Below, piece by piece: positions 7,733-30,085 of a stretch of DNA of 35,532 bases. The DNA lies in NCBI GenBank assembly GCA_949295035.1, contig CASFJO010000054.1, forward strand, positions 1 through 35,532, in the 5' to 3' direction. A model generated the notes under the pieces. That model was not told where the DNA came from and searched no databases. It saw only the letters and a program-made list of their open reading frames with translations. Every line of letters begins with the position of its first letter. The stretch's first letter is position 1. Origin of the DNA: an uncultured Gemmiger sp. (GTDB taxonomy: Bacteria > Bacillota > Clostridia > Oscillospirales > Ruminococcaceae). Both the position numbers and the translations under genes were made by a program.

Positions 7733-8089
7733 TCATTCGGCGGAGAGGATGTCCTCCACCCGCACGTCGATGCGGCAGACCTTCAGGCCGGTGGCGTGTT
7801 CCACCTCATCCTTGACCTTGTGGGTGATGGCCCGCACGATGGTGGCGATGTTGAGCCCGTAGCTCACCTTGATGCGCAGCTGGATGGCCAGCTGGCCGTC
7901 CCGCTGCTCCACATGCACGCCCTTTTCCGCGTGCGCGCCGCCCAGCACCAGGCCCTTGATCTGCTGGGCCGCGGTATCGTCGCCCATGGCGGTCACCCCG
8001 TAGCAGCGCTTGGCCACCTCGGCCACAAGCTGATTGAAGTACTCGCCGGTGATGCTCACGGCGCCATGAGGGGTATAGCTGGTGATCAT
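7733..8089 (-). CDS. Asp23/Gls24 family alkaline-shock-like protein (YloU-like)
   Basis: This 118-residue protein has no signal peptide and has the Asp23/Gls24 pattern: GAVSITGEYFNQLVAEVA near the N-terminus, then VHVEQRDGQLAIQLRIKVSYG and a later VCRIDVRVEDI. Family members are abundant and associate with the membrane envelope; the YloU subgroup is always near the DAK2 gene yloV, as here. AAAGGAG precedes the ATG by 9-10 bases. The gene is 64 bases from fakA and 34 bases after the lipoprotein gene, so the three probably form one transcript. Confidence 0.88.
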   Translation of the reverse strand: MITSYTPHGAVSITGEYFNQLVAEVAKRCYGVTAMGDDTAAQQIKGLVLGGAHAEKGVHVEQRDGQLAIQLRIKVSYGLNIATIVRAITHKVKDEVEHATGLKVCRIDVRVEDILSAE

Positions 8090-8123
8090 CTTGTCATCGC
8101 TCCTTTACGAAGATTCGTCGGCC

Positions 8124-9659
8124 TTATGCGACCGCAAGGTTTGCCAGGGAATAAAACACGCCGCTCACCGAGGCGCTCACGCCGGACACGTCCCGGCTGC
8201 AAACCACGGTGCCGTTCTGCCACACCAGCGGCACCAGCGGCATCAGATCGGCAAACGCCTGTTCCAGGGCGCCGGCGGCGGCCACGTCCAGGCGGAAGGC
8301 GTCCCGGGCGGCGGGCAGTTCCTCGTTCTGGGCGAGGCCCGCGCTGAGGGCCCCGCCGGGAAGAAACGGCGTTATATCCATATTATTATACAACTTAACT
8401 TCCCCGATGTACAGTTCAAATTGGCCGCTGAGCACCTGTTCCTTGTATTGATCGAAGTTGTCCTGCTCCACCACCTGCACATAGACCCCGGCCTCGCCCC
8501 ACTGCTGGCGCAGCAGATTCGCCGCGTACCGCTTGTATACGCTGCCGGTGTACACCAGCAGCTGTACCTCCAGCCGGGCGCCGTCGGCGTCGGCAAAGTA
8601 GCCGGTCATCGGGTCCAGCGTATAGCCCAGCGTACCCAGCAAAGCGCTCACCCCGTCCGGCTGGGGATCGGCGCTGATCGTCTGGGCGTCCCGCACGCAG
8701 GGGTAAAAGCTGTTGATGATGCCGGTGGCCGGATAGGCCCGGGCGTAAAAACTTTCCTGGGCCAGGGCCCGCCGGTCGATCAGGCGGCTCAGGGCCGTGC
8801 GCCCGGTGGCGGTAGCCAGCAAGGGCTTTTCGCCGGCGCTGTTCACCCCCAGATAGATCAGTTCGTTGGTGCGGTAAAAACTCTGCTGGCTGGTCATGCT
8901 GCCGGCGGCGTCGCTGTCGCTGATGGCGTCATACAGATTCACCGATCCCTGAGAAAAGCTGCTCACCAGTTCATCATAACCGGCCACCGGCCACAGCCGG
9001 ATCTCAGCCGGGCCCTCCCCCGCGCCGAAGGGCGCGCGCGGGTTGGCGACCAGTTGATCAGCCCCCTGGCCATAGGTGTACCGGCCGCTGGCGGTGGGAG
9101 AGGCCAGGGCGGTTTCGGCGGCTTTCATCACCGGGATATCGCACAGATAGGCGAAGAGACTGTCCGGCGCGGCAAGTTCCAGCACCACCAGCCCGTCCTG
9201 CACCCGCATGGCGGTCACGCCCGCGAACCGCCCGCCGTACATGGCGCTGGCCTGAGCCGCCTGCAGGCTGGCCAGGATGTCCTCGGCGGTAACGGCGGTG
9301 CCGTCCGCGAAGGTGCAGCCGCCCCGGGGCGTGATGACCACCTGATCGCCGGCGCTTACGATGCTCTGGGCCAGCCGGTATTCCAGATCCATCTCGGGGG
9401 TGATCTCCACCAGTTTTTCAAACACCAGCCCGGCGTTCTGTGCCACCAGCGAGGAGTTGACCCGATACGGATTGAATCCGTCGGATTCGGTGTAGCCGAT
9501 GCAGAGCATCCCGCCCGAACCGCCGTCTCCGGCGGGCACCTGCAGGGTGGTCTGCCCGCTGGAGGCAGGGGCGTCATCGGGGGCGGGCGCGGGGGCGCAT
9601 CCTGCCAGCAGCAGTGCGCAGCCGGCCAGCGCCAGCGCGCGGCGAAGAACGGGGCGCAT
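8124..9659 (-). CDS. Family 5 extracellular solute-binding lipoprotein
   Basis: This 511-residue secreted lipoprotein has Arg residues, a hydrophobic stretch and the lipobox LLAGC at about residues 17-21. The mature region has the family 5 (oligopeptide/nickel-binding DppA/OppA-like) pattern: GFNPYRVNSS, FADGTAVTAEDILASLQAA and an SRLIDRRALAQ segment. The ligand is probably a peptide but this is not readable. AAGGAAG precedes the ATG. Oddly, no ABC permease or ATPase gene is adjacent; instead it leads into yloU-fakA. It may share a transporter encoded elsewhere or act as a sensor or chaperone. A promoter with TGGTATAAT lies at about 9721. Confidence 0.9.
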   Translation of the reverse strand: MRPVLRRALALAGCALLLAGCAPAPAPDDAPASSGQTTLQVPAGDGGSGGMLCIGYTESDGFNPYRVNSSLVAQNAGLVFEKLVEITPEMDLEYRLAQSIVSAGDQVVITPRGGCTFADGTAVTAEDILASLQAAQASAMYGGRFAGVTAMRVQDGLVVLELAAPDSLFAYLCDIPVMKAAETALASPTASGRYTYGQGADQLVANPRAPFGAGEGPAEIRLWPVAGYDELVSSFSQGSVNLYDAISDSDAAGSMTSQQSFYRTNELIYLGVNSAGEKPLLATATGRTALSRLIDRRALAQESFYARAYPATGIINSFYPCVRDAQTISADPQPDGVSALLGTLGYTLDPMTGYFADADGARLEVQLLVYTGSVYKRYAANLLRQQWGEAGVYVQVVEQDNFDQYKEQVLSGQFELYIGEVKLYNNMDITPFLPGGALSAGLAQNEELPAARDAFRLDVAAAGALEQAFADLMPLVPLVWQNGTVVCSRDVSGVSASVSGVFYSLANLAVA

Positions 9660-9720
9660 GGGCGTTCACTTCCTTTTTTTGGCCTGCGGGAAGGCGCAAA
9701 ACGCCCCTCCCGGTCCTGCT

Positions 9721-9729
9721 ATTATACCA
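9721..9729 (-). promoter_or_regulatory. Promoter of the lipoprotein-yloU-fakA operon
   Basis: The minus strand reads TGGTATAAT, a consensus -10 with a TGn extension. The -35 region (TTCAAA or TTTTCA) is weak. It predicts a leader of about 55 bases. Confidence 0.6.
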
Positions 9730-9832
9730 CAGCCCGGCAGCCTTTGAAAAGCCGCGCGGGCCGCCCTGCCGCAAATGTGCGAAAAAATCATGGAGACGGG
9801 GGTTTTGTCATACCTTTTTCATAAAGAGGCGG

Positions 9833-9838
9833 TATAAT
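9833..9838 (+). promoter_or_regulatory. -10 box of the CBS-domain gene
   Basis: TATAAT stands in an AT-rich patch 59 bases before the start codon. The only TTGTCA nearby is 22 bases upstream, too far for a standard promoter, so the -35 is uncertain. Confidence 0.45.
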
Positions 9839-9896
9839 AAAATTACAAAATGGTTGCAATCCGCCAACCCCATCCTACCACAAGCGAGGCATTGCT

Positions 9897-10349
9897 ATGA
9901 ACCTGTTGTTCTTCCTTACCCCCAAGCAGGACGTGGCCTTTATCTACGACGATTTTACGCTGCGCCAGACCCTGGAGAAGATGGAGTACCACCGGTACTC
10001 CTCCATCCCGGTGCTCACCCGCCGGGGCGAATACGCGGGCACCATCACCGAGGGCGACCTGCTCTGGTACATCAAAAACCACATGGACCTTTCCTGCGAG
10101 CGGGCCGAGGATGTGCCGGTGTCGGCGGTGCCCCGCAAGCGGGACTACTTACCCGTGCCGGTGACCACCACCATGGACGAACTGGTGGCCGCCGCCATGA
10201 CCCAGAATTTTGTGCCGGTGGTGGACGACAAAAAGAGCTTTATCGGCCTGGTCAAGCGCAACAGCATCATCCAGTATTGCTACGACCGGGTGTGCGGCGG
10301 CGCGGCACGGGAGCCGCGGGCCGTCCGCGGCGAAAAGGCCCGCGCCTGA
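9897..10349 (+). CDS. CBS-domain pair protein
   Basis: This 150-residue cytoplasmic protein consists of two CBS motifs: one with SSIPVLTRRGEYAGTITEGDL and one with FVPVVDDKKSFIGLVKRNSI. CBS pairs bind adenosine nucleotides (AMP, ATP, SAM or c-di-AMP) and regulate partner proteins; standalone ones of this kind are often annotated AcuB/YkuL-like. No catalytic domain is fused. The start ATG at 9897 has GAGG at 8-9 bases. It is monocistronic: it has its own -10 box and ends at a strong terminator. Its C-terminal tail is rich in Arg and Ala. Confidence 0.88.
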   Translation: MNLLFFLTPKQDVAFIYDDFTLRQTLEKMEYHRYSSIPVLTRRGEYAGTITEGDLLWYIKNHMDLSCERAEDVPVSAVPRKRDYLPVPVTTTMDELVAAAMTQNFVPVVDDKKSFIGLVKRNSIIQYCYDRVCGGAAREPRAVRGEKARA

Positions 10350-24301: not shown

Positions 24302-25612
24302 ATGTTCAAAAAACTGAAGCGTTCGGCCCTCGGGGCAAGCGTCCCGCACGAGAAGGCGACGGCGGGTATGGCAACGGTGAAGATGCCGCTGCCCGCGCGC
24401 ATCGTGCTGCCCATGCAGCAGCACATCGGCGCGCCCTGCACCCCGGTGGTCAAGAAGGGCGACACCGTCCAGGTGGGCACCCTGGTAGGCAAAGCGGGAG
24501 GCTTTGTCAGTGCCAACATCTATTCCGGCGTGTCCGGCACGGTCAGCGGCATCGAGACGTTGGTGGGCTCCACCGGCGCCGTGATGGAAGCCGTGGTCAT
24601 CACGCCGGACGGCCAGCAGACGGTGGACCCGTCGGTGCAGCCGCCGGTAGTCACCGATAAGGCGAGCCTGGTCAAGGCCGCCCAGGACTGCGGCCTGGTG
24701 GGCCTGGGCGGCGCGGGCTTCCCCACCGCCGTCAAGCTCAGCCCCAAGACCCCGGTGGACACCCTGGTCATCAACGGGGCCGAGTGCGAGCCCTATCTGA
24801 CCGCCGATACCCGCGAGTTTTTGGAGAACAGCGAGACGGTCATCAGCGGCATCGAAGCCGTCATGAAGTATATGGAGATCAAGCGCTGCGTGATCGGTAT
24901 CGAGCGCAACAAGCCCGAGTGCATCGATCTGATGTGCAGCCTGGTCAGCGGTATGGCCGGCGTGGAGGTCAAGCCGCTGCGCAGCCGCTACCCGCAGGGC
25001 GCGGAAAAGACCCTGATCGAGAGCACCACCGGCCGGGAAGTGCCCCGCGGCGGGCTGCCCAGCGACGTGGGGGTGATCGTGATGAACGTCACCACTGTGT
25101 CCACCCTGGGCAAGTTTTTGGCCACCGGCATGCCCCTGACCACCAAGCGCCTGACCCTGGAGGGCGACGCGGTGGCCAAACCCTGCAACGTGGAGGTCAT
25201 CGTGGGCACCCCCGTGCAGGACGTGCTGGATTTCGTGGGCCTGAAAGAGGGCGTCACCCTGAGCAAGATCATCTGCGGCGGCCCGATGATGGGCGTTTGC
25301 CTGACCGATATCAACTATCCGGTGACCCGCCAGAACAACGGCCTGCTGCTGCTCAGCGACAAGGCCGCCGCGCTGCCCGCGCCCGGGCCCTGCATCCGCT
25401 GCGGCCGCTGCATCGAGGGCTGCCCCATGGGCCTGGCCCCCGTGCAGATCGCCGGCGCGTTCCAGAAGAAAGACGTGGCCGCCCTCACCGCGCTGCAGGT
25501 GGACCTGTGCGTGCTGTGCGGCACCTGCAGCTATGTCTGCCCCGCCAAGCGCCCGGTCACCCAGACCATGAGCCTTGCCAAGGAGCTGCAGAGAAAAGGA
25601 GGCAAGAAATAA
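24302..25612 (+). CDS. rnfC: Rnf complex subunit RnfC (NADH-binding, 4Fe-4S)
   Basis: This 436-residue peripheral subunit oxidises or reduces NAD(H) at the cytoplasmic face of the Rnf complex. The N-terminal barrel-sandwich domain includes KMPLPARIVLPMQQHIGAP. The nucleotide-binding segment GLGGAGFPTAVKL starts near residue 134. Two ferredoxin motifs follow: CIRCGRCIEGCP (Cys364, 367, 370, 374) and CVLCGTCSYVCP (Cys403, 406, 409, 413). The length is that of clostridial RnfC (about 440). The ATG has a G-rich GGGGGAT about ten bases upstream. First gene of the operon; rnfD follows directly. Confidence 0.97.
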   Translation: MFKKLKRSALGASVPHEKATAGMATVKMPLPARIVLPMQQHIGAPCTPVVKKGDTVQVGTLVGKAGGFVSANIYSGVSGTVSGIETLVGSTGAVMEAVVITPDGQQTVDPSVQPPVVTDKASLVKAAQDCGLVGLGGAGFPTAVKLSPKTPVDTLVINGAECEPYLTADTREFLENSETVISGIEAVMKYMEIKRCVIGIERNKPECIDLMCSLVSGMAGVEVKPLRSRYPQGAEKTLIESTTGREVPRGGLPSDVGVIVMNVTTVSTLGKFLATGMPLTTKRLTLEGDAVAKPCNVEVIVGTPVQDVLDFVGLKEGVTLSKIICGGPMMGVCLTDINYPVTRQNNGLLLLSDKAAALPAPGPCIRCGRCIEGCPMGLAPVQIAGAFQKKDVAALTALQVDLCVLCGTCSYVCPAKRPVTQTMSLAKELQRKGGKK

Positions 25613-26542
25613 ATGGAAAACCGCTTGCTTGTTACCGCCTCGCCCCACATCACCGGCCGGGATACCACCCGCGGCCTGATGGGCAATGTGATCGCCGCCC
25701 TGGTGCCCTGCATCGTGGCCGCGGCGCTCATCTTCGGCTGGCAGGCGCTGCTGCTGGTGGGCGTGACCACCGCGGCCTGCGTGGGCTTTGAGTATCTGTA
25801 CTGCCTGATCCTGAAAAAGCCCAACCCGGTGGGGGATCTGTCTGCCGTGGTCACCGGCATCATCCTGGCGCTGAACATGCCCGTCACCATGCCCCTGTGG
25901 ATCGCCGTGGTGGGCGCTTTCATCGCCATCGTGCTTGTGAAACAGCTGTTTGGCGGCATCGGCGCCAACTTCGCCAACCCGGCCCTGGTGGCCCGTATCG
26001 CCCTGTTCAGCGGCTTTTCCACCCGGATGACCGCTGTGGTCATCCCCTCCTGCGTGGGGGTGGACGCGCTGAGCAGCGCCACCCCGCTGCAGACCGCCGA
26101 CATGGGCAGCCTGCCCCTGCTGGACCTGCTTTTGGGCAAATACGGCGGCGTCATGGGCGAGACCTGCAGCCTGGCCATCCTGATCGGCCTGGCCTGGCTG
26201 CTGATCAGCCGCACCATCAGCGCGGTGATCCCGGTCACCTACCTGGCCACCGTGGCGGTGCTGTTCGCCCTGGCGGGCGAGCCCGTGCTGGCCAACCTGC
26301 TCACCGGCGGTTTGCTGTTCGGCGCGGTCTTTATGGCCACCGACTATGTCACCAGCCCCTTTACCCTGCGGGGCAAGCTGGTGTTCGGTCTGGGCCTGGG
26401 CCTGATCACCTTCGCCATCCGTATGTGGGGCGATCTGCCGGAGGGCGTTTCCTATGCCATCCTGTTCATGAACCTGCTGGTGCCCTACATCAATGACCTG
26501 ACCCGTCAGGTACCTCTGGGAGGTGGCAAGAAACATGGCTAA
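25613..26542 (+). CDS. rnfD: Rnf complex subunit RnfD
   Basis: This 309-residue membrane subunit has about nine hydrophobic segments and a covalent FMN site expected on a Thr near the middle. The segment LFSGFSTRMTAVVIP followed by LSSATPLQT contains S-x-A-T-P-L, the RnfD/NqrB flavinylation motif (SGATPL in most). The N-terminus LLVTASPHI is typical. AAAAGGAGG precedes the ATG, immediately after the rnfC stop. The 3' end overlaps rnfG by 8 bases. Confidence 0.96.
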   Translation: MENRLLVTASPHITGRDTTRGLMGNVIAALVPCIVAAALIFGWQALLLVGVTTAACVGFEYLYCLILKKPNPVGDLSAVVTGIILALNMPVTMPLWIAVVGAFIAIVLVKQLFGGIGANFANPALVARIALFSGFSTRMTAVVIPSCVGVDALSSATPLQTADMGSLPLLDLLLGKYGGVMGETCSLAILIGLAWLLISRTISAVIPVTYLATVAVLFALAGEPVLANLLTGGLLFGAVFMATDYVTSPFTLRGKLVFGLGLGLITFAIRMWGDLPEGVSYAILFMNLLVPYINDLTRQVPLGGGKKHG

Positions 26543-27980
26543 CAAGAAGAACAACAACTATGAAAATGTGGTCAAACCCATCGTGGTGCTGGTCGTGATC
26601 TGCCTGATCACCAGTACCCTGCTGGCGGTGACCAATTACTTCACCGCGCCCATCATCAAGGCCAAGGAACAGCAGGCCGCCTACGCCGCTTACTTTGCGG
26701 TGCTGCCCGACGCGGACAACTTCACCACCGTGGAGGGCTTTGCCACCTCCGGCGTGGAGGAGGCCGTCAAGGCCGACAACGGCAGCGGCTACGCCTTCAA
26801 GGCCATCGGCAAGGGCTTCGGCGGCGATGTGCCCGTGATCGTGGGCGTGAATATGGACGGCGTGATCACCGGCGTGTCCTTCCTGCAGAACTCCGAGACC
26901 AGCGGTTTCGGCGCCCGCCTGTATGACGGCAGCGCCGACGGCCCCGCCTATGCGGCAGAGCTGACCGGCAAGAGCGGCAGCGTGGCCCTGGGGCAGGACG
27001 GCGTGAACGGCCTGGCCGGCGCCACCGTCTCCAGCACCGCCGTGGTCAGCGCGGTGAACAGCGCGCTGAGCTGCTTCGCTGAGGTGGCTCTGGGCCAGGC
27101 GGCCGTTGTGGAACAGGCCGCCCCCACCACCCTGGAGGAGGCCGTGGCCATCCTGCTGGGCGACGGCGCTTCCTATACCCCGGTGGAGTTTGCCACCGCG
27201 GGGGTGCAGGAGGCCGGCGCGCTGGATGACGGCAGCGGGTATGTGTTCCTGGCTGTGGGCGCCGGCTTCGGCGGCGACGTGCCGGTGGCGGTGGTCACCG
27301 ATGCCAGCGGCGTCATCACCGGCGTGTCCTTCCTGCAGAACGGCGAGACCAGCGGCTTTGGCACCCGCCTGTATGACGGCAGCGAGGACGGTCCCGCCTT
27401 CGCCGCCCAGCTGGTGGGCAAGAGCGGCAGCGTGGCCCTGGGCAGCGACGGCGTGGACGGCCTGTCCGGCGCCACCGTCTCCAGCACCGCGGTCGTGGAC
27501 GCTGTGAACAACGCGCTGAACTGCTACAACGAGGTCGCCCAGGGGGGCGCGCCGGTGGCGGCTCCCGTCGCGGCGCCCGCGTCCCTGGATGAGGCTGTGA
27601 CCGCCTTTTTGGGCGACGGCGCCGTGGCCGGCGAGGCCGAGGGCGCTGCCGCGGTCTACACCAGCGCCGACGGGGCGCTGACCCTGATCGCCGTGGAGGC
27701 CGAGGGCTTCTCGGACGAGACCGCGCCCCTGACCGTGGCCACCTGCTTTGACGCCGAGGGCGTCGTCACCAACCTGTGGGTGGACGTGTCCGGCCAGACC
27801 CAGGGTCTTGGCACCAAGGCCGGCGAGGCCGCCTTTACCGACCTGTTCGTTGGCCTGTCCGACGCGGCCGGCGTGGACGCGGTGGACGCTATTGCCAGCG
27901 TTACCGAATCCAGCGACGGCGTCAAGGCCGGCGTTGCCGCCTGCATGGAGATCTTCCAGACGATGAAGGGGGGCAACTGA
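26535..27980 (+). CDS. rnfG: RnfG with three tandem FMN-binding domains
   Basis: RnfG normally has about 200 residues: one membrane helix and one extracytoplasmic FMN-binding domain with covalent FMN on the Thr of an SGAT motif. This protein has 481 residues. After the membrane helix (about residues 14-34) come three domains. Domain 1 (about 70-178) has LAGATVSSTAV with Thr164, and domain 2 (about 225-330) has LSGATVSSTAV with Thr314. Domain 3 (about 358-478) keeps QTQGLGTKAGEAAF but reads IASVTESSDGV at the equivalent place (Thr457). Linkers repeat an EAV-x-LLGDGA helix. GGAGGTGGCAAG precedes the ATG at 26535. Frame and codon use are continuous, so this is not an assembly artefact by eye. 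It would place two or three flavins outside the cell membrane. Confidence 0.95.
   Translation: MANKKNNNYENVVKPIVVLVVICLITSTLLAVTNYFTAPIIKAKEQQAAYAAYFAVLPDADNFTTVEGFATSGVEEAVKADNGSGYAFKAIGKGFGGDVPVIVGVNMDGVITGVSFLQNSETSGFGARLYDGSADGPAYAAELTGKSGSVALGQDGVNGLAGATVSSTAVVSAVNSALSCFAEVALGQAAVVEQAAPTTLEEAVAILLGDGASYTPVEFATAGVQEAGALDDGSGYVFLAVGAGFGGDVPVAVVTDASGVITGVSFLQNGETSGFGTRLYDGSEDGPAFAAQLVGKSGSVALGSDGVDGLSGATVSSTAVVDAVNNALNCYNEVAQGGAPVAAPVAAPASLDEAVTAFLGDGAVAGEAEGAAAVYTSADGALTLIAVEAEGFSDETAPLTVATCFDAEGVVTNLWVDVSGQTQGLGTKAGEAAFTDLFVGLSDAAGVDAVDAIASVTESSDGVKAGVAACMEIFQTMKGGN
26859..27524 (+). repeat. Tandem DNA repeat inside rnfG (period 450)
   Basis: Bases 26859-27074 and 27309-27524 align without gaps. 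By hand count about 185 of 216 bases match (86%) and 60 of 72 residues. Many differences are at third positions or conservative. The exact 150-codon offset points to a duplication inside the gene, younger than the split from domain 3. Confidence 0.85.
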
Positions 27981-27983
27981 TCC

Positions 27984-28655
27984 ATGAATAACAAAGTCAA
28001 AATTCTGACCAACGGCCTGCTGAAGGAGAACCCGACGCTGCGCCTGGTGCTGGGCACCTGCCCGACGCTGGCCGTTACCACCGCCGCCTCCAGCGGCCTG
28101 GGCATGGGCATCGCGGCCGCCTTCGTGCTGATCTGTTCCAACATCGTGATCAGCGCGCTGCGCAAGGTCATTCCTGATAAGGTCCGTCTGCCGGCCTACA
28201 TCACCATCATCGCCACCTTCGTCACCATCGTGCAGATGCTGGTCAAGGCGTTCTTCACCGAACTGGATACCGCCCTGGGCGTGTATCTGCCCCTGATCGT
28301 GGTCAACTGCATCATCCTGGGCCGCGCCGAGATGTTCGCCTCCAAAAACAAGGTGGTGGACAGCGCCCTGGACGGCGTGGGCATGGGCCTGGGCTTCACC
28401 CTGATCCTGGTGCTGATGGGCTCCTTCCGTGAGCTGATCAGCAAGGGCAGCATCTTTGGCGTGATGCTCCTGCCCGAGAGCCTGGACCGCTTCACCCTGA
28501 TGGGTTCCGCGCCCGGCGGCTTCTTTACCTTCGGGCTGTTCATGGCCATCGTGGTGTGGATCGAGATCAAAACCAACAACCGCATCAAGCGGAGTATCGG
28601 CTGCGAGGGCTGCCCCAGCAAGGGTGCCTGCGCGGGGAAAGGGGAGTGTGAATAA
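27984..28655 (+). CDS. rnfE: Rnf complex subunit RnfE with Cys-rich tail
   Basis: This 223-residue integral membrane subunit has six hydrophobic segments, with NGLLKENPTLRLVLGTCPTL at the start and LGVYLPLIVVNCIILGRAE in the middle. RnfE and RnfA share the fold and hold a [2Fe-2S] cluster between them through conserved cysteines (TCPTL, VNCIILGR). The C-terminal tail GCEGCPSKGACAGKGECE adds four cysteines (207, 210, 216, 222) not needed for the core cluster. GGGGGG lies upstream of the ATG. The stop overlaps the rnfA start by one base (TAATG). Confidence 0.96.
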   Translation: MNNKVKILTNGLLKENPTLRLVLGTCPTLAVTTAASSGLGMGIAAAFVLICSNIVISALRKVIPDKVRLPAYITIIATFVTIVQMLVKAFFTELDTALGVYLPLIVVNCIILGRAEMFASKNKVVDSALDGVGMGLGFTLILVLMGSFRELISKGSIFGVMLLPESLDRFTLMGSAPGGFFTFGLFMAIVVWIEIKTNNRIKRSIGCEGCPSKGACAGKGECE

Positions 28656-29278
28656 TGGAGCTTGCCGCCATTTTCTTCACCATGATTCTGGTGAACAACT
28701 ACGTTCTGGTGCAGTTCCTGGGCATCTGCCCCTTCCTGGGCGTGTCCAAAAAGCTGGACTCCGCCTTCGGCATGAGCTGCGCGGTCATCTTCGTTATGGT
28801 GCTGGCCACCGCGGTGACCTGGCCCATCCAGACCTTCCTGCTCACGCCGGTGGACCCTGCCACCGGCGTGCTCAAGTGGGATCTGGGCTATCTGCAGACC
28901 ATCGTCTTTATCCTGGTGATTGCCGTGCTGGTGCAGCTGATCGAGATCGCCATGAAGAAGTATATGCCCCCACTGCATAAGGCGCTGGGCGTCTACCTGC
29001 CCCTGATCACCACCAACTGCGCGGTGCTGGGCGTCACCATCCTGAACATCGACAACGGCTACAACTTTGTGGAGTCCATCGTATGCGCCGCCGGCGCGGG
29101 CTTCGGCTTTATGCTGGCCATGGTGCTGTTCAGCGGCGTGCGCAAGCGCCTGGAAGACGCGCAGCCCCCCAAATGCTTTGAGGGCCTGCCCATCACCCTG
29201 GTCTCCGCAGCCATCGTCAGCCTGTCCTTCACGGGCTTCGGCGGCATTGTGGACGCCATCTTCAAAACTGCGGCTTAA
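28655..29278 (+). CDS. rnfA: Rnf complex subunit RnfA
   Basis: This 207-residue integral membrane subunit is paralogous to RnfE. LVNNYVLVQFLGICPFLGVS and LGVYLPLITTNCAVLGVTI carry the conserved cysteines of the membrane [2Fe-2S] site. The length is slightly above the usual 190-195. The start overlaps the rnfE stop, so translation is coupled. AAAGGGGAG in the end of rnfE acts as ribosome binding site. Confidence 0.97.
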   Translation: MELAAIFFTMILVNNYVLVQFLGICPFLGVSKKLDSAFGMSCAVIFVMVLATAVTWPIQTFLLTPVDPATGVLKWDLGYLQTIVFILVIAVLVQLIEIAMKKYMPPLHKALGVYLPLITTNCAVLGVTILNIDNGYNFVESIVCAAGAGFGFMLAMVLFSGVRKRLEDAQPPKCFEGLPITLVSAAIVSLSFTGFGGIVDAIFKTAA

Positions 29279-29293
29279 AGGAGGAACCAACCT

Positions 29294-30085
29294 ATGACCA
29301 TTGCTATGGCAATCATCCTGGTCACTGTTGTGGGCCTGCTGGGCGCCGTGATCCTGGTGCTGGCCGCCCGCTTCATGGCCGTGGAGGAGGACCCCCGCGT
29401 GGGCCAGGTGCAGGCCTGCCTGCCCGGCGCCAACTGCGGCGCCTGCGGCTATGCCGGCTGCGCCGACTACGCCAAGGCCATCGTGGAGGGCGCGCCGGTC
29501 AATAAGTGCGTGCCCGGCGGCGCCAAGGCCGCCAAGGAGGCCGCCGCCGTTATGGGCGTGGAGGTCGGTGCCACCCGTACCGTCTGCGCGGTGGTGACCT
29601 GCCAGGGCGAAAACGGCGTCTGCAAACAGAAGTACGATTACCGGGGCGTTTCCAGCTGCGCGGCGGCCAACGCCCTGTACGGCGGGCCCAATGCCTGCAG
29701 CTTCGGCTGCATCGGCCTGGGCGACTGTGTCAAGGCCTGCCAGTTCGACGCCATCCATGTGGAGAACGGCCTGGCCAAGGTGGACCCGGCCAAGTGCACC
29801 GGCTGCGGCGCCTGCAAGGCGGCCTGCCCCCACAAGATCATCTGGATGTACGAGGAAAAGCAGAAACCTGTGGTGATGTGCGCCAACCATGAAAAGGGCG
29901 CCGCCACCAACAAAGAGTGCAGCAAGGGCTGCATCGCCTGCATGAAGTGTGAGAAGAGCTGCCCGGAACAGGCCATCAAGGTGACGGACAACGTGGCCCG
30001 CATCGACTACGCCAAGTGCACCGGCTGCGGCACCTGCATGGAAGTCTGCCCCAAGAAGGTCATCCACCTGCCCGGCCAGGTATAA
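29294..30085 (+). CDS. rnfB: Rnf complex subunit RnfB (ferredoxin-interacting)
   Basis: This 263-residue subunit has an N-terminal membrane helix, then the 4Fe-4S domain with CLPGANCGACGYAGCADY. Ferredoxin-like clusters follow: CSFGCIGLGDCVKAC, CTGCGACKAACP, CIACMKCEKSCP and CTGCGTCMEVCP. It accepts electrons from reduced ferredoxin. AAAGGAGGAA precedes the ATG. It is the last gene, followed by a strong terminator. The order C-D-G-E-A-B is that of clostridial and acetogen Rnf operons. No ApbE flavin transferase is in this window, though RnfG and RnfD need one. Confidence 0.97.
   Translation: MTIAMAIILVTVVGLLGAVILVLAARFMAVEEDPRVGQVQACLPGANCGACGYAGCADYAKAIVEGAPVNKCVPGGAKAAKEAAAVMGVEVGATRTVCAVVTCQGENGVCKQKYDYRGVSSCAAANALYGGPNACSFGCIGLGDCVKACQFDAIHVENGLAKVDPAKCTGCGACKAACPHKIIWMYEEKQKPVVMCANHEKGAATNKECSKGCIACMKCEKSCPEQAIKVTDNVARIDYAKCTGCGTCMEVCPKKVIHLPGQV

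Follow-up and report, generated by a model that had tools for sequence, protein, structure and literature searches.

Why an RnfG subunit should carry three tandem FMN-binding domains, and where electrons held by the additional ones might go, is the question raised by positions 26535..27980 (plus strand) of the window, by which the whole analyzed stretch of 35,532 nucleotides is meant. The gene encodes RnfG, the outer flavin subunit of the energy-converting membrane complex Rnf, here complete, in a gut bacterium, Gemmiger sp. (Oscillospiraceae); the subunit is enlarged by tandem FMN-binding domains.

The rnfG gene, its operon and its three domains

The rnfG gene forms a single open frame, starting with ATG at 26535 and ending with the last base of the stop codon at 27980 (26535..27980, stop included). 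It encodes 481 amino acids with three Pfam FMN_bind matches, and the product matched TIGR01947 with 131.7 bits (cut-off 102). The program-made open reading frame began at the in-frame GTG at 26523, yielding 485 amino acids.

The operon is complete, with the order rnfC-D-G-E-A-B on the plus strand, and all products matched their families. Gene rnfC (24302..25612, TIGR01945) is followed by rnfD (25613..26542, TIGR01946), which overlaps the start of rnfG by 8 nt. On the other side of rnfG lie rnfE (27984..28655, TIGR01948), in which the cysteines of LGTCPT and VVNCII are kept, rnfA (28655..29278, TIGR01943), with those of GICPFL and TTNCAV likewise kept, and rnfB (29294..30085, NF005503, above its cut-off). 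No reductase gene was found in the rnf operon.

An N-terminal membrane helix was read from the sequence as a hydrophobic stretch at about residues 13–36 (26571..26642), and residues 17–181 align with the solved RnfG 7zc6_G. FMN domain 1 (residues 71–188, 26745..27098, motif NGLAGATVS) occupies the canonical RnfG position, as determined from the FMN_bind match and the alignment to solved RnfG. Domain 2 (residues 221–338, 27195..27548, DGLSGATVS) was recognized as a duplicate of domain 1 by repeat comparison and by the domain tree, and domain 3 (residues 368–481, 27636..27977, DAIASVTES) groups with later RnfG domains of relatives. The linkers joining the domains are rich in Ala and Pro. At the DNA level, the FMN_bind scores were 62.3, 65.8, and 26.0 bits for domains 1, 2, and 3, respectively (cut-off 22).

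Domains 1 and 2 share 73% amino acid identity and form an in-register DNA repeat with 450-nt spacing, 77% identical, in which no identical run exceeds 27 nt, whereas domain 3 is only 26–31% identical to either of them at the amino acid level. In a tree of 77 domains, about half of whose forks were weak, domain 2 fell beside the domain-1 rows of all four Gemmiger genomes (support 84), and domain 3 grouped with domains at the second and fourth positions of multi-domain RnfGs from other genomes (support 87). To judge from these comparisons, the ordinary RnfG domain is domain 1, which adjoins the membrane helix, and domains 2 and 3 are additions.

The first-pass annotation, which had described one frame of 481 residues with a single membrane helix in an otherwise ordinary Rnf operon, was borne out in these respects. 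Its description of three repeats of the RnfG FMN domain held for the number of FMN_bind matches and for the close kinship of domains 1 and 2, but domain 3 proved to be of another kind. Structure prediction of the full protein (4 sequences) gave a mean pLDDT of 52.7, too poor for inter-flavin distances, and that of domain 3 (10 sequences) gave 54.3, too poor for distances or a fold search.

Predicted flavin attachment sites and Gemmiger relatives

Thr164 (27024..27026) in domain 1 and Thr314 (27474..27476) in domain 2 are the predicted FMN acceptors, and both lie in the intact GAT motifs that had been pointed out in the first pass. The motif of domain 1, NGLAGAT, has N where D is usual. In domain 3, Thr457 (27903..27905) occupies the aligned acceptor position, with SVT in place of GAT, and its flavinylation is uncertain. 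A single ApbE match was found in the window genome, on another contig. Judged by these motifs, two flavins per RnfG chain is a lower estimate.

The gene was present in all four Gemmiger genomes compared. The metagenome-assembled genome (MAG) L044 (CALXIA010000022.1; G148 is the same record by contig position) carries the same 481-residue, three-domain RnfG at 93% identity, and two further genomes, G008 (L045) and G127 (L046), carry a two-domain RnfG composed of domain 1 and domain 3. Domain 2 is thus present in two of the four genomes and absent from the other two.

Substitution rates were compared for each domain. Between the window and L044, dN/dS was 0.17 for each of the three, based on 6, 9, and 9 nonsynonymous changes in domains 1, 2, and 3, respectively; against L045 and L046, values of 0.25–0.30 were obtained for domain 3 and 0.15–0.20 for domain 1. 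All three domains look to be under purifying selection, few changes being counted, and selection on domain 3 appears somewhat relaxed in the latter comparison, not abandoned.

Synonymous divergence between domains 1 and 2 was 0.45 in the window and 0.56 in L044, higher than that of domain 1 between the two Gemmiger lineages (0.26–0.34), which would make domain 2 older than their separation, with a later loss from L045 and L046. For domain 3, however, the divergence between the same lineages reached 0.40–0.58, so the synonymous figures do not settle the age of the domain-2 duplication.

The state of domain 3 bears on any reading of the protein. It may have lost its flavin here and serve as a docking or spacing domain of a two-flavin protein, a possibility that is compatible with all the explanations considered below and to which we give slightly less than an even chance. 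The motif DAIASVTES of the window and L044 stands against DTIAGATLS and DALAGATLS in L045 and L046, respectively, and a loss would also fit the lowest FMN_bind score of the three domains, the higher dN/dS relative to domain 1 in the comparison with L045 and L046, and QTQGLG in place of the ETSGFG of domains 1 and 2, though GAT-bearing relatives also have QTQGIG. On the other hand, the motif retains both its Thr and its Asp, the former in all four Gemmiger genomes. Among the 85 one-domain RnfGs, Val precedes the acceptor Thr in one, and Ser takes the place of the motif Gly in four; Val before this Thr is also seen in 4 of the 26 first domains, and GST occupies the same site in the solved RnfG 9eri_G. 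Residues other than Ala before the acceptor, Val included, numbered 9 among the 85 one-domain RnfGs and 7 among the 26 first domains of the family sample. Because such replacements are found in presumably essential domains, and because of the GST of 9eri_G, domain 3 may or may not bind FMN; since Thr457 is kept and the two-domain relatives have GAT there, its flavinylation is best regarded as uncertain rather than lost.

Domain number in the family and other FMN_bind proteins

P0001 was matched in 120 of the 148 genomes sampled from the family, and the survey covered the best-match region in 114 of these 120 (G046, G074, G096, G099, G113, and G118 were left out). An FMN-domain gene was located among rnf genes at all 114 loci. 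Using a profile built here, one domain was counted in 87 genomes, two in 18, three in 7, and four in 2. In five genomes (G010, G045, G051, G082, and G083) an FMN domain was fused to RnfD; with these left out, a multi-domain RnfG was present in 25 of 114 genomes (16 with two, 7 with three, and 2 with four domains). A survey of RnfG length and domain classes had been proposed in the first-pass annotation; the long form was also present in L044.

Several variants were observed in the course of the survey. RnfD is fused to one FMN domain in L118, L119, L131, and L121, the last of which also has a separate RnfG, and to two FMN domains in L144 (654 aa). In the four-domain RnfGs of L056 (3985–5895) and L057 (4602–6509), domain-1 and domain-3 types alternate as A-B-A-B, which suggests an origin from a duplicated two-domain unit. 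No hidden second domain was found, with filters off, in five long one-domain RnfG reading frames, their extra length lying upstream of the membrane helix.

Thr or Ser was found at the acceptor position in 37 of the 38 extra domains of multi-domain RnfGs (GAT in 28) and in all 85 one-domain RnfGs (GAT in 61); these counts also take in L044 and, some genomes being close kin, are not independent. Together with the low dN/dS, this retention supports a maintained function of the extra domains. Relatives whose operons are otherwise alike differ widely in domain number, and on quick RnfC trees (102–103 genomes) the one-domain or multi-domain state changed at least 12–14 times.

The window genome (92% complete) contained 14 FMN_bind matches, three in RnfG and 11 in eight other reading frames (L047–L054). 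FAD_binding_2 was detected in six of these eight, and a lipobox-like stretch near the N-terminus was found by a simple pattern in all eight, five of which show it only downstream of an internal Met. Among ten reading frames beside the reductase genes, Pfam named one (a TetR regulator) and gave no match for nine, some of which may not be genes.

The external count was defined as the number of FMN_bind matches per genome minus the RnfG domains, clipped at zero. Among the 114 genomes, at least 11 FMN domains outside Rnf were found only in G000 (the window genome), G008, and G127, all Gemmiger, and in G081; the next highest value was 6. The Gemmiger genomes and their near relative G081 combine an RnfG of two or three domains with 11–15 external FMN domains.

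Genomes with a multi-domain RnfG had more external FMN_bind domains than those with one domain (25 vs. 87 genomes, the latter including three RnfD-fused ones; Mann–Whitney p = 1.2 × 10⁻⁵, related genomes being treated as independent). With the above four genomes and the fused ones removed, the difference persisted (21 vs. 84, p = 5.6 × 10⁻⁴, kinship ignored). However, the association was not significant under a phylogenetic control, for which independent pairs were taken from a quick RnfC tree (103 genomes, 8 usable pairs). At a threshold of at least two external domains, 3.3 pairs differed in the same direction, 0.0 in the other, and 4.7 did not differ (median p 0.25, or 0.125 without the window genome); at least one external domain gave 2.8 vs. 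1.7 pairs (median p 1), and at least three gave 2.0 vs. 0.0 (median p 0.5). The direction mostly fits a link between multi-domain RnfG and external FMN_bind proteins and is suggestive, at a power too low for more. Exceptions were seen on both sides: 5 of the 25 multi-domain genomes, including the three-domain G078, had no external FMN_bind domain by this count, and 10 of the 87 one-domain genomes had at least two, with six in G114.

A search of the window genome for rival conduits covered three of them, MsrQ-, DsbD-, PepSY-, and Eet-like proteins being left out. It yielded one Fer4_5 (NapH-like) protein, no match for a DUF4405 conduit, and a second RnfD-like protein, which belongs to a cassette with replaced RnfE and RnfA cysteines.

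This cassette (L173, contig G000:C41) consists of RnfD (7915–8910), RnfE (8900–9553), and RnfA (9550–10158), with no rnfB, rnfC, or rnfG adjoining. The same D-E-A order without an FMN domain was found in all 20 loci inspected (L175–L194, the best 20 matches, the window's own included), within up to about 1.5 kb to either side of the RnfE-like match. The two cysteines of RnfE, which we take to be the holders of the membrane iron-sulfur cluster, were replaced in 20 of 20 loci, as was the first RnfA cysteine; the second RnfA cysteine was replaced in 12 of 20. RnfE-like matches, the true rnfE counted in, occurred in 135 of the 148 family genomes, two per genome being commoner than one. By its sequence, the D-E-A cassette looks like a conserved Rnf core without a redox centre, and none of the titles listed in one literature search named such a cassette.

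A possible second electron outlet and its relation to known systems

In the excerpted text of PMC12174285, RnfG is described as shuttling between the RnfA/E iron-sulfur cluster and RnfD. Starting from the observed architecture, domain kinship, low dN/dS, and motif retention, we infer flavinylation, the direction of electron flow, and the acceptors as follows. Thr164 and Thr314, and perhaps also Thr457, would be flavinylated by ApbE, encoded elsewhere in the genome. The normal electron transfer from RnfA/E to RnfD would fall to domain 1, and domains 2 and 3, on their Ala/Pro-rich linkers, would act as tethered flavin carriers, accepting some of the electrons of domain 1 and handing them over to lipoprotein reductases, themselves flavinylated, at the membrane's outer face. 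Flavin domains added on flexible linkers could extend reach or capacity, and electrons would have, besides NAD+, a second way out of Rnf, leading outward.

Such an exit is the most economical reading because the genome has a set of probably membrane-tethered external flavoreductases; it is plausible, still unproven, and we put its chances at about even. It is supported, at the level of sequence, by the canonical identity and position of RnfG, the complete operon with the RnfA/E cysteines, the same architecture in L044, the low dN/dS, the acceptor retention, the single ApbE, the eight further FMN_bind reading frames, the raw association, and the yield of the rival-conduit search. Against it stand the loss of significance under phylogenetic control, the exceptions in 5 of 25 and 10 of 87 genomes, the lack of a reductase gene in the operon, the presence of a Fer4_5 protein, the possibility that domain 3 is not flavinylated, and models that give no inter-flavin distances. 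The first-pass annotation had suggested that the extra flavins could form a wire projecting from the membrane, through which Rnf passes electrons to an external acceptor, or could buffer electrons between RnfD and RnfG; the sequence supports domains that are kept functional and leaves an external acceptor plausible, but the link with FMN_bind proteins lost significance after control. The two-domain and three-domain RnfGs within one genus provide a ready natural comparison for testing the outlet.

It is improbable that the role of the extra domains is limited to shifting or buffering electrons on the RnfA/E to RnfD path, as a flavin capacitor or a longer-reach shuttle with no outward exit. The operon has no dedicated acceptor gene and contains rnfC and rnfB, the usual cytosolic ends, and one-domain relatives do without the extra domains, all of which would suit such a role. 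The wide variation in domain number among similar operons nevertheless speaks more for an optional add-on than for a component of the coupling cycle, and buffering does not predict the raw link with external FMN_bind proteins.

Rather unlikely, too, is a drift of domain number by unequal recombination, with extra domains tolerated and having no selected role in electron transfer. The repeated changes of state on the RnfC trees and the patchy presence of domain 2 in Gemmiger would be expected from it, but dN/dS in domains 2 and 3 equals that of domain 1 (on few changes), and nearly all extra domains retain the acceptor residue. An assembly artefact is unlikely and was rejected, since L044, a second MAG, has the same gene and the domain copies have diverged in DNA, with only short identical runs.

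A broader version of the outward exit can be put forward tentatively, as possible though on balance doubtful: in this branch of the Oscillospiraceae, Rnf might serve as a respiratory hub, in which multi-flavin RnfG arms tap electrons on the way from ferredoxin to NAD+ for a battery of lipoprotein flavoreductases and the length of the arms evolves in step with the set of reductases, Gemmiger and G081 being the extreme case. Should electrons indeed leave through the additional flavins, common gut anaerobes would possess in Rnf an ion pump that at the same time feeds electrons to external reductases.

Compared with the solved one-domain RnfGs, presumably from Clostridium tetanomorphum (7zc6_G) and Acetobacterium woodii (9eri_G), the likeness is confined to the membrane helix and domain 1. 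Residues 11–181 of 189 in 7zc6_G align with the window protein with E = 1.3 × 10⁻¹⁶, and residues 12–203 of 207 in 9eri_G with E = 3 × 10⁻¹⁴. Both chains end after one domain, at 189 and 207 residues, respectively, vs. 481 in the window RnfG.

Tandem FMN_bind domains, a predicted N-terminal membrane sequence, and linkers rich in small residues are shared with SaFMN3 and CbFMN4, which carry three and four covalent FMN, respectively, according to the excerpts of Tong et al. 2023 (PMC10339131). Unlike the window RnfG, these proteins are not described as Rnf subunits in those excerpts, and their domains are more than 80% identical, vs. 73% and 26–31% here. Beads-on-a-string models of tandem multi-FMN proteins are presented in a 2024 mSystems paper (PMC11334425), as far as its excerpt goes.

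The closest precedent is the work of Méheust et al. 2021 (eLife, PMC8238504), from which the multi-domain RnfG class and the idea of a second outlet are already known: it reports RNF clusters with multi-flavinylated RnfG and proposes a second electron pathway to external acceptors. Within the literature searched, the phrase multi-flavinylated RnfG was found only there. With more than one FMN-binding domain, an RNF cluster, and the same proposed second pathway, the window RnfG is a further instance of the RnfGs in that text; it belongs to the class by domain count (three FMN_bind stretches), FMN per chain being predicted from two GAT motifs and one SVT. To this class, the present analysis adds an anatomy of two kinds of domain, in which a duplicated domain 1 is accompanied by a domain 3 with SVT, counts of motif retention, and a suggestive relation to how many other FMN_bind proteins a genome has.
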